Part shown: piece by piece, positions 32,013-34,030 of the stretch
Position numbering within the stretch: position 1 is the stretch's first letter
How the letters are laid out: every line of letters starts with the position of its first letter
Assembly: GCA_028715885.1 (NCBI GenBank)
Contig: JAQUQX010000015.1
Span: 1 to 41,162, forward strand
Length of the DNA stretch: 41,162 nucleotides
Reading direction: 5' to 3'
Source of the DNA: Candidatus Methanoperedens sp.
Lineage (GTDB): Archaea > Halobacteriota > Methanosarcinia > Methanosarcinales > Methanoperedenaceae
Notes under the pieces: generated by a model
What the model was told of the DNA's origin: nothing
Seen by the model: the letters and a program-made list of their open reading frames with translations, nothing else
The model's database searches: none
Translations under genes and position numbers: made by a program

Positions 32013-32873
32013 CTATTTCTCTTTAACATTTCTCTTGCTTATGACCTCGAATATGGAGTCAAAGACCGGCTTATCCGTGGTAACAGTGTGAAAATCCGCC
32101 CCTACCTGAAGGCTTGTATCTTTTATCTTCGCGATATGGTCATTCAGGCGCTTCTCATATTCGGAACGTAAGCGCGGGCTTGTATAAATATCCATTTTTT
32201 TATCAGTCTCAAGGTCTATCAGCCTTGCCTCCCCGCCCAGGTCAAGTTTTCTCTCTACAGGGTCAAGCACCTGAATAAGCACTAACTCATTGTCCCCGAG
32301 CCTGAATATCGAGTTCCTTATACCATCAGCCTCTGCCATGAAATCCGAGATAATGAAAACAAGCGACCTTGATTTTATAATGCTTGCATACTTTTCCATA
32401 CAGTAATCGAACCGGGTTTTTCCAAGAAGCGCTGTGCTGTTGAGAAGGTCGATTGTCTGGGAGAGATACTTCCTGCCGCGTTTTGGCTTCGTGATATTAA
32501 TTTCCTCTGCAAAAGTGGACACGCCAAACTTCTCATTGTCCTTGGTCACAAGATACGCAAAGCCCAGAGCAAGCATCGCCGCATACTCGAACTTGTTGCG
32601 AAAATCCATGCTCTTGCTTGTATCAAGCAGTATGTGCGTTGTGAGGCTTTTTTCCTCCTCGAATTCCTTGACGTAGAGTTTCTCGGTGCGCCCGTACACT
32701 TTCCAGTCAATAATCTTGAAATCGTCCCCCTGCGTGTATTCGCGGTAGCTCACAGGCTCCATGCCCCTGCCTTTCAGGATAGAGCGGCGGCTTCCGCTAT
32801 AGGCTGTGGATACGCGCTTTCGCACCATGAACGAGAAGCGGTCAAGCTCCTTGAAAAACGAGGTATCTATCAT
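32013..32873 (-). CDS. DUF58 protein (MoxR operon partner, VWA-like fold)
   Basis: A 286-residue DUF58 protein. The characteristic block GRGMEPVSYREYTQGDDFK and IDWKVYGRTEKLYVKEFEEE is followed by the VWA-like ILLDTSKSMDFRNKFEYAA and LVFIISDFMAEADG. It is predicted cytoplasmic, acting with MoxR. Its ATG overlaps the end of a 70-codon frame of palindromic repeats that separates it from moxR. It runs into the BatA-like gene after 10 nt. Confidence 0.9.
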   Translation of the reverse strand: MIDTSFFKELDRFSFMVRKRVSTAYSGSRRSILKGRGMEPVSYREYTQGDDFKIIDWKVYGRTEKLYVKEFEEEKSLTTHILLDTSKSMDFRNKFEYAAMLALGFAYLVTKDNEKFGVSTFAEEINITKPKRGRKYLSQTIDLLNSTALLGKTRFDYCMEKYASIIKSRSLVFIISDFMAEADGIRNSIFRLGDNELVLIQVLDPVERKLDLGGEARLIDLETDKKMDIYTSPRLRSEYEKRLNDHIAKIKDTSLQVGADFHTVTTDKPVFDSIFEVISKRNVKEK

Positions 32874-33082
32874 AAAGCGACACCTCGCTTTATCCGGTGT
32901 CCACGTATGGCAGAGCCATACGTGTTGAATTTAATAAACTTTTCTAAAAGTTTAGCGACACCTCGCTTTATCCGGTGTTCAGGTATGCTTCGCATACCTG
33001 TCGTTTTATAAATCTTTCTTAAAGGTTTACATATGGCTTCGCCATACGTTTCTGTGAAGTAAAGCGGCGCAACGTTTTTCAT
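32870..33082 (-). CDS. Possible 70-codon frame made largely of palindromic repeats
   Basis: The frame starts with ATG directly after the moxR stop and ends in an ATGA-type overlap with the DUF58 start, so ribosomes could pass through all three genes. It translates as a basic peptide in which HRIKRGVA occurs twice, 26 codons apart, because the DNA is a tandem repeat with a 78-bp (in-frame) period. No known domain is present. It may be a true small protein, or a repeat insertion whose open frame keeps moxR and DUF58 translation coupled. Confidence 0.3.
   Translation of the reverse strand: MKNVAPLYFTETYGEAICKPLRKIYKTTGMRSIPEHRIKRGVAKLLEKFIKFNTYGSAIRGHRIKRGVAL
32872..33049 (-). repeat. Tandem palindromic repeat element (two units plus a partial third)
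   Basis: Units start at 32877 and 32955 with GCGACACCTCGCTTTATCCG. Each contains a strong hairpin: CACGTATGGC-AGA-GCCATACGTG (32902-32924), CAGGTATGC-TTC-GCATACCTG (32980-33000), and a partial third TATGGC-TTC-GCCATA (33032-33046). A second AT-rich hairpin follows in units one and two (TAAACTTTT...AAAAGTTTA at 32935-32954; related sequence at 33009-33029). Hairpin stems are conserved as pairs while bases differ between units, implying compensatory change and RNA- or DNA-level structure. Confidence 0.85.
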
Positions 33083-34030
33083 TTATTTCACTTTTTTCAG
33101 GATATCAGAAACCACCTGGTCGGTTGTCATGCCCTTGCGCTCTGATTCAAACGTAAGAATAACGCGGTGGCGCAGTACGGGATAAGCCATAGCATCGATA
33201 TCTTCTGCGCTCACGTAATTCCTATCCCTCATCAGCGCCCTGGCTTTTGCAGCCAGAATAATGCCGATGGACGCTCGCGGCGAGGCGCCGTATTCGATAT
33301 GCTCGCTCTTTGCCCTCGTTGCCGCCACAATCTTAATGGCTCTCTGCTTAATATCCTCTGCTATGGGAACGTCGCGCGTAAGTTTCTGGAGTTCAATGAC
33401 TTCGTTCTTTGAAACCACCTGTTTTACCGAAGGAGTAATGTTTTTCGTGTACCTGTTAACAATCTCGTTCTCATCCTCAAACGTGGGATAGTCCATTAAA
33501 ATCTTGAGCAGGAACCTGTCCAGTTGCGCCTCTGGCAGCGGGTATGTGCCTTCCATCTCAATCGGGTTCTGGGTGGCAAGGATAAAAAATGGCTTATCCA
33601 GGGGATAGGTCTTATTGCCTATGGTGACCTGTTTTTCCTGCATAGCCTCAAGGAGAGCGCTCTGTGTCTTGGGCGAAGCCCTGTTTATTTCATCAGCCAG
33701 CACGATATTCGCGAACACAGGTCCTGGCTCGAACCGGTACTGTTTTTTTCCACCCACATCCTCGATTATATAGGTGCCTGTGATGTCGGAAGGCATGAGG
33801 TCAGGGGTGCACTGTATCCTGTTGAATTTCAGGTCGAGAGCCTTTGAAATCGTGCTGATGGTAAGCGTCTTTGCAAGCCCGGGATTGCTCTCCACAAGCG
33901 CATGGCTGTTGCAGAGGATTGCAATCATCATCTGCTCTATTGCTTCATGCTGCCCTACGATAACTTTACTTATTTCATCAAGAAGTTCCTTGAAAATCCC
34001 TTTTGAACTTTTATATGTCTCGTTACTCAT
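33083..34030 (-). CDS. MoxR family AAA+ ATPase
   Basis: A 315-residue MoxR ATPase. Walker A is in LVESNPGLAKTLT (GxPG-type with Ser for the first Gly), Walker B in IVLADEINRASPKTQSALLEAM, then the sensor motif PFFILATQNPIEMEGTYPLPEAQLDRF. The C-terminal lid includes GASPRASIGIILAAKARALM. MoxR proteins act as chaperone-like ATPases with VWA partners, often for metal insertion or envelope stress. It is preceded by a conserved membrane-protein gene and followed by the repeat frame and DUF58. Confidence 0.93.
   Translation of the reverse strand: MSNETYKSSKGIFKELLDEISKVIVGQHEAIEQMMIAILCNSHALVESNPGLAKTLTISTISKALDLKFNRIQCTPDLMPSDITGTYIIEDVGGKKQYRFEPGPVFANIVLADEINRASPKTQSALLEAMQEKQVTIGNKTYPLDKPFFILATQNPIEMEGTYPLPEAQLDRFLLKILMDYPTFEDENEIVNRYTKNITPSVKQVVSKNEVIELQKLTRDVPIAEDIKQRAIKIVAATRAKSEHIEYGASPRASIGIILAAKARALMRDRNYVSAEDIDAMAYPVLRHRVILTFESERKGMTTDQVVSDILKKVK

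Follow-up and report, generated by a model that had tools for sequence, protein, structure and literature searches.

Between a moxR-type AAA ATPase gene and a DUF58 gene of a Candidatus Methanoperedens species lies a palindromic repeat element belonging to a dispersed family whose copies lie at start codons within operons and mostly keep a mini-ORF open up to the start of the downstream gene. Operons with translational coupling probably tolerate such a repeat since its mini-ORF hands the ribosome on from one gene to the next by termination-reinitiation. The window analysed is the whole stretch of 41,162 nt (contig JAQUQX010000015.1), and the features of the moxR/DUF58 junction are as follows.

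33083 to 34030, minus strand: moxR-type AAA ATPase gene, the upstream gene (Pfam AAA_3, 3.5e-62, and AAA_lid_2)
32870 to 33082, minus strand: palindromic element, a single 70-codon mini-ORF (from the frame as read and the length class in relatives)
33047 to 33082, minus strand: left-end block ATGAAAAACGTTGCGCCGCTTTACTTCACAGAAACG; most palindromic inserts at this junction have a similar one
33029 to 33049, no strand assigned: hairpin block ACATATGGC-TTC-GCCATACGT
32981 to 32999, no strand assigned: hairpin block AGGTATGC-TTC-GCATACCT; pairing of the homologous hairpin is kept via compensatory changes
32954 to 32987, minus strand: right-end-type block in a second, internal copy, in frame and 78 bp from the terminal copy
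32936 to 32953, no strand assigned: hairpin block AAACTTTTCTAAAAGTTT
32903 to 32923, no strand assigned: hairpin block ACGTATGGC-AGA-GCCATACGT
32872 to 32893, minus strand: terminal hairpin ATAAAGCGA-GGTG-TCGCTTTAT, whose stem positions pair in 90-97 of the 97 copies
32881 to 32886, minus strand: GAGGTG, a Shine-Dalgarno-like (SD-like) sequence supplied by the element, 7 nt before the DUF58 ATG
32013 to 32873, minus strand: DUF58 gene, the downstream gene (Pfam DUF58, 1.1e-43)

On the minus strand the TAA of moxR is immediately followed by the mini-ORF (ATG AAA AAC...), which runs for 70 codons to a TGA sharing an ATGA with the DUF58 start, whereas stops occur in the other frames. This ATG (32871-32873) marks the right-hand limit of the element, and its first two bases are included in the 3' arm of the terminal hairpin. 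The preliminary description of the region had placed the beginning of the frame right after the moxR stop and its end in an overlap with the DUF58 start, exactly as found. It had also reported a 78-bp tandem repeat with hairpins. The blocks and hairpins exist, as two 34-nt blocks (32876-32909 and 32954-32987) located 78 bp apart are 94% identical and a 21-nt hairpin block likewise has a partner, but the repeat is partial and its units differ beyond the 34 nt. The further proposal that the stems go on pairing despite base changes was borne out by comparison of 18 related units, in which both sides of a pair had changed with pairing kept for three pairs in the central hairpin and one in the right-end hairpin. 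RNA folding of a 247-nt stretch yielded a minimum free energy of -82.2 kcal/mol against a mean of -51.1 kcal/mol for dinucleotide shuffles (z = -6.8; 0/200 shuffles). An Rfam search of the region returned a single match, far under its gathering score.

Copies of the element begin with ATGAAAA... and end with ...TCGCTTTATG, and range in size from 38 to 362 nt, the shortest, 38-nt copies retaining just the two ends. The distribution of the family was traced with the 21-base right end, allowing up to two mismatches, a pattern that favours typical copies. This motif was found in 20 of the 31 genomes of the genus, which are draft bins, with counts from 0 to about 27 per genome. It was absent from three genomes of other genera of the family, had one two-mismatch match among 152 genomes of other families, and was not found as an exact motif in the contigs of a viral collection. 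Judged from these sequence matches, the family appears to be essentially confined to the Methanoperedens-type genus of methane-oxidising archaea, to which the closest named relatives of the MoxR protein also assign the source genome.

Of the 20 copies in the source genome that carry the right-end motif, 18 terminate precisely at a downstream gene's ATG, in the orientation of that gene, as do four further copies with variant ends, bringing the total to about 22. The exceptions are an internal module (L160), a copy that is not at a gene start (L157) and two copies inside other repeats (L302 and L303). A variant right end, AAAGGGGCGTAACCCTTTATG, is present in L300, L304 and L305 (contigs C40, C5 and C3). 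The host junctions include those of RNA polymerase A'/A'', ribosomal proteins S17/L14, argininosuccinate lyase, an ABC ATPase behind CbiM and polyprenyl synthetase, among others; the genes downstream are genuine and often essential. Since the 41-kb window holds 1545 ATG triplets over both strands, far above the gene number, this exact placement is not due to chance.

Empty sites were sought for five copies by fusing 200 nt of sequence ending just before the left ATG with 200 nt beginning at the right ATG and searching the genus. Many relatives align straight across the junction, with a native ATG at the joint; for a TfuA-like gene, 400 of 400 columns aligned at 86%. Because the joined flanks match relatives straight through, the insert extends from the left ATG through the base before the right ATG. 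The term insertion is used here on the basis of empty and occupied sites, since no transposase has been linked to the element. A start codon is present at both ends of the copies, and a gene with a GTG start (L217, a case that is not clean) has GTG at both ends, a sequence pattern that hints at duplication of the start codon upon insertion. Duplication of a 7-base target was considered as a general rule and rejected, as it was found for copies inside other repeats and not at start codons. These embedded copies occur in two other repeat families (L200, L218, L220, L249-L258 and L261, and L199, L201, L202 and L251) and are flanked by the 7-bp direct repeats ACGAACT or ATCYGTG; the composite repeats seem to have spread as units.

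The hairpin ends, the frequent ATGA at both boundaries and the presence of Y1 transposases in the genus would fit a miniature element derived from REP or IS200/IS605 sequences and moved by a Y1 transposase targeting TCAT, the complement of ATGA. However, the counts do not track each other: genome G015 lacks Y1 matches despite 26 motif hits, and G043 has 10 Y1 matches and no motif, a lack of correlation observed in incomplete MAGs. Start codons with other following bases are also used, and the 7-bp direct repeats around the embedded copies are unexpected for the IS200/IS605 class, so that this origin is improbable. The source genome has three Y1 transposase matches (L021, L022 and L023), two of them at contig ends, with no sign of a link to the element; the flanks of L021 lack similar ends.

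REP sequences, which are GTAG/CGTC-tagged and associated with RAYT transposases, are likewise short multicopy palindromes often located between co-directional genes, but most of them are found downstream of coding sequence, and they bear a GTAG or CGTC tag (PMC3733652). In the present family both ends abut coding sequence, no GTAG/CGTC tag defines the ends, and Y1 transposase numbers do not go along with element numbers in the incomplete MAGs. Prokaryotic MITEs share with it small size (here 38-362 nt), multiple copies, the lack of an internal transposase gene and presence/absence polymorphism, with empty sites in relatives. It differs from them in its location exactly at start codons. A parental transposon and a clear terminal inverted repeat were not found; its ends are two different hairpins, and an autonomous partner was not seen among the loci examined.

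Frame was counted in 61 copies from eight genomes by an unbiased rule, taking as the left end the first ATG in any frame from -4 to +12 of the upstream stop. A left-end rule admitting GTG besides ATG chose spurious starts, although 28 of 36 groups still conformed, and the ATG-only rule was used instead. The ATG-to-ATG length is 2 mod 3 in 57 of the 61 copies, so that the mini-ORF reads in frame into the TGA within the downstream ATGA; the mini-ORF ends exactly in this ATGA in 53 copies, and 35 copies form an ATGA overlap with the upstream gene as well. When each ortholog group was counted once, 29 of 33 obeyed the rule (p = 1.3e-10 against one third). Between orthologous sites, 23 of 25 differences in length were multiples of three (p=1.5e-9, a value inflated because many modules are themselves multiples of three). 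Both p values assume independent copies and changes and are overstated, since orthologous copies are not independent; the frame pattern holds irrespective of them. As a control, copies inside other repeats show all length residues mod 3 (Fisher p=0.001). The preliminary description had named relatives without frame conservation, together with an absence of further copies, as the outcome that would speak against it. When this was examined, the source genome yielded 35 matches, and the frame proved to be kept in all eight palindromic occupants of the moxR/DUF58 junction and in most copies elsewhere.

The eight copies that break the exact rule are L145, L180, L194, L208, L232, L234, L235 and L259; four of them stop no more than 16 nt before the start and one stops 13 nt past it. 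In L300 and L305, which have the variant right end and a length of 0 mod 3, a TAA in the terminal loop halts the mini-ORF 6 nt before the start. L208 (genome G041, contig C63) is 129 nt long, also 0 mod 3, and remains open into a downstream gene with an ATGG start, to which, judged by its reading frame, it could add a 43-residue N-terminal extension.

The inheritance of an open frame and a suitable length from a noncoding repeat whose master copy happened to have both is exceedingly unlikely. The stop-free bodies of the copies inside other repeats agree with such an origin, but those copies do not keep length mod 3, while lengths from 38 to 362 nt at start codons keep the frame and single-base indels there are compensated. 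Units with the GGGG/CCCC stem (+2) have one extra left-end base (L150), L186 is one base shorter at the left and one base longer behind the hairpin, and in L306 a longer stem is accompanied by the deletion of one base in the loop.

The nearly universal open frames and a recurrent consensus, MKNFRKVLSKEGYAKHTLYRIKRGVAL, would also be expected if the mini-ORFs were functional small basic proteins with the frame kept for the peptide. However, each of the three frames serves to read the hairpin core in one copy or another (42/27/10), with the right end in one phase (63/2), and the variation shows no excess at third codon positions (10/32/10 and 33/23/21), which argues that openness, not the peptide, is kept; the conserved peptide was rejected on these grounds. 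Lengths from 13 to over 90 codons, and a copy (L233) that stays open with an unrelated repeat as its interior, also leave little probability for a protein function. In that copy (genome G022, contig C32) the mini-ORF with the swapped interior still ends in ATGA.

A resemblance to palindromic elements that insert into genes and keep them open had been suggested beforehand. The Rickettsia palindromic elements (RPEs) are indeed similar in being dispersed palindromic repeats of roughly 100-150 bp with frames kept open, and the suggestion stands with respect to the dispersed palindromic family and its open frame. It fails as to insertion inside genes extending them: RPEs are inserted within genes, code for a conserved peptide and give rise to fusions (review PMC10969869), whereas the copies described here lie at the start codon between co-directional genes as separate mini-ORFs, out of frame with the downstream gene, and their peptide is not conserved. 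A length of 2 mod 3 would moreover frameshift an interrupted gene, which makes the reading of these repeats as RPE-like palindromes inserting in frame inside genes very unlikely. RPEs and MITEs are the nearest known kinds of repeat, and the element is best called a variant of protein-coding palindromic repeats with a placement and frame rule of its own.

An SD-like 4-mer is present 4-16 nt before the ATG in 95 of 97 copies; the pattern used for the 16S 3' end (anti-SD) had no match in the MAG of the source genome. The terminal hairpin is predicted to hide the start codon, for which the median unpaired probability is 0.012 with the element against 0.76 at native empty sites, the latter being drawn from five gene families. 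In archaea and bacteria, a spacing of about 20 nt nearly abolishes termination-reinitiation coupling (PMC10666635), and an untranslated insert of 80 nt should therefore uncouple the genes.

From these data we infer the following relay. A dispersed, apparently non-autonomous palindromic repeat would insert, or be retained, precisely where genes in operons have their start codons. Its mini-ORF would take over the position of the native start codon together with the ribosome-binding context, and the downstream gene would acquire another SD-like sequence and a start codon lying on the margin of the terminal hairpin. Because the hairpin is predicted to hide this start and reinitiation is only very short-range, the downstream gene should need a ribosome that translates the insert. 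Such a ribosome would open the terminal hairpin and stop exactly at the next start, which would account for frame and length being maintained while the peptide is not, selection retaining open copies that end on the downstream ATGA and leaving the peptide free to vary. If the relay operates, copies with an early stop should lower downstream expression.

The terminal hairpin, which is strong, conserved and predicted to conceal the start, and the presence of copies in operons that encode complexes, among them RNA polymerase and ribosomal proteins, could also reflect a regulatory device selected by the host, in which hairpin, SD and start set the ratio of neighbouring genes and which spread because it is useful. 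This appears rather unlikely, as the element is patchy among close species at the same junction and varies from 0 to about 27 motifs per genome, as expected for selfish or neutral DNA, and the host genes are functionally unrelated. A stronger form of the relay reading, possible but doubtful, is that of a categorically new mobile palindrome targeting start codons, which would duplicate the start codon, bring its own ribosome-binding hairpin and relay ribosomes in frame, so being transparent to operon translation.

Termination-reinitiation at ATGA overlaps is known for native gene pairs (PMC6728339, PMC10666635), with stop and start overlapping or a few nucleotides apart, an arrangement found here downstream in 53 of 61 copies and upstream in 35; the difference is that here a repeat element recreates the overlaps on both sides. 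The Borg tandem repeats of Methanoperedens occur in the same host genus and also include repeats in ORFs under strong selection, but they are tandem direct repeats, reported to be virtually absent from host genomes (PMC9879509), whereas the elements described here are dispersed palindromes within the host genome. No description of such elements, their placement or their frame rule was found in the open-licence literature. Since ATGA overlaps have no spare DNA and are tightly coupled, inserted DNA at these junctions is expected to be strongly counterselected; dozens of inserts nevertheless occupy coupled junctions, even those of RNA polymerase subunits and ribosomal proteins, and their length and openness obey the coupling rule. 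They thus offer a natural experiment, covering about 30 species, on the strictness of translational coupling in archaeal operons. The inserts are also a possible source of new small ORFs, and many small hypothetical ORFs in Methanoperedens annotations would be explained as repeat inserts.

At the moxR/DUF58 junction itself, the palindromic inserts of eight species measure 83-296 nt, and all are 2 mod 3 and stop-free. The palindromic state requires about five changes on a tree of moxR plus DUF58. Inserts of other types at this junction (n=11) are mixed in frame; coupling at moxR/DUF58 is therefore not indispensable, and, as it can be lost there, the need for frame in the palindromic copies probably stems from the hairpin that the element brings. 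In relatives (L116, L119, L124, L128-L133, L136 and L137) the other inserts comprise ACCGCAGATAAACGCAGATGAACGCAGATT-type and AACACGGATGACACGGATT-type repeats and, for some species, an ORF of roughly 200 codons; the site has the look of a general hotspot for insertion.
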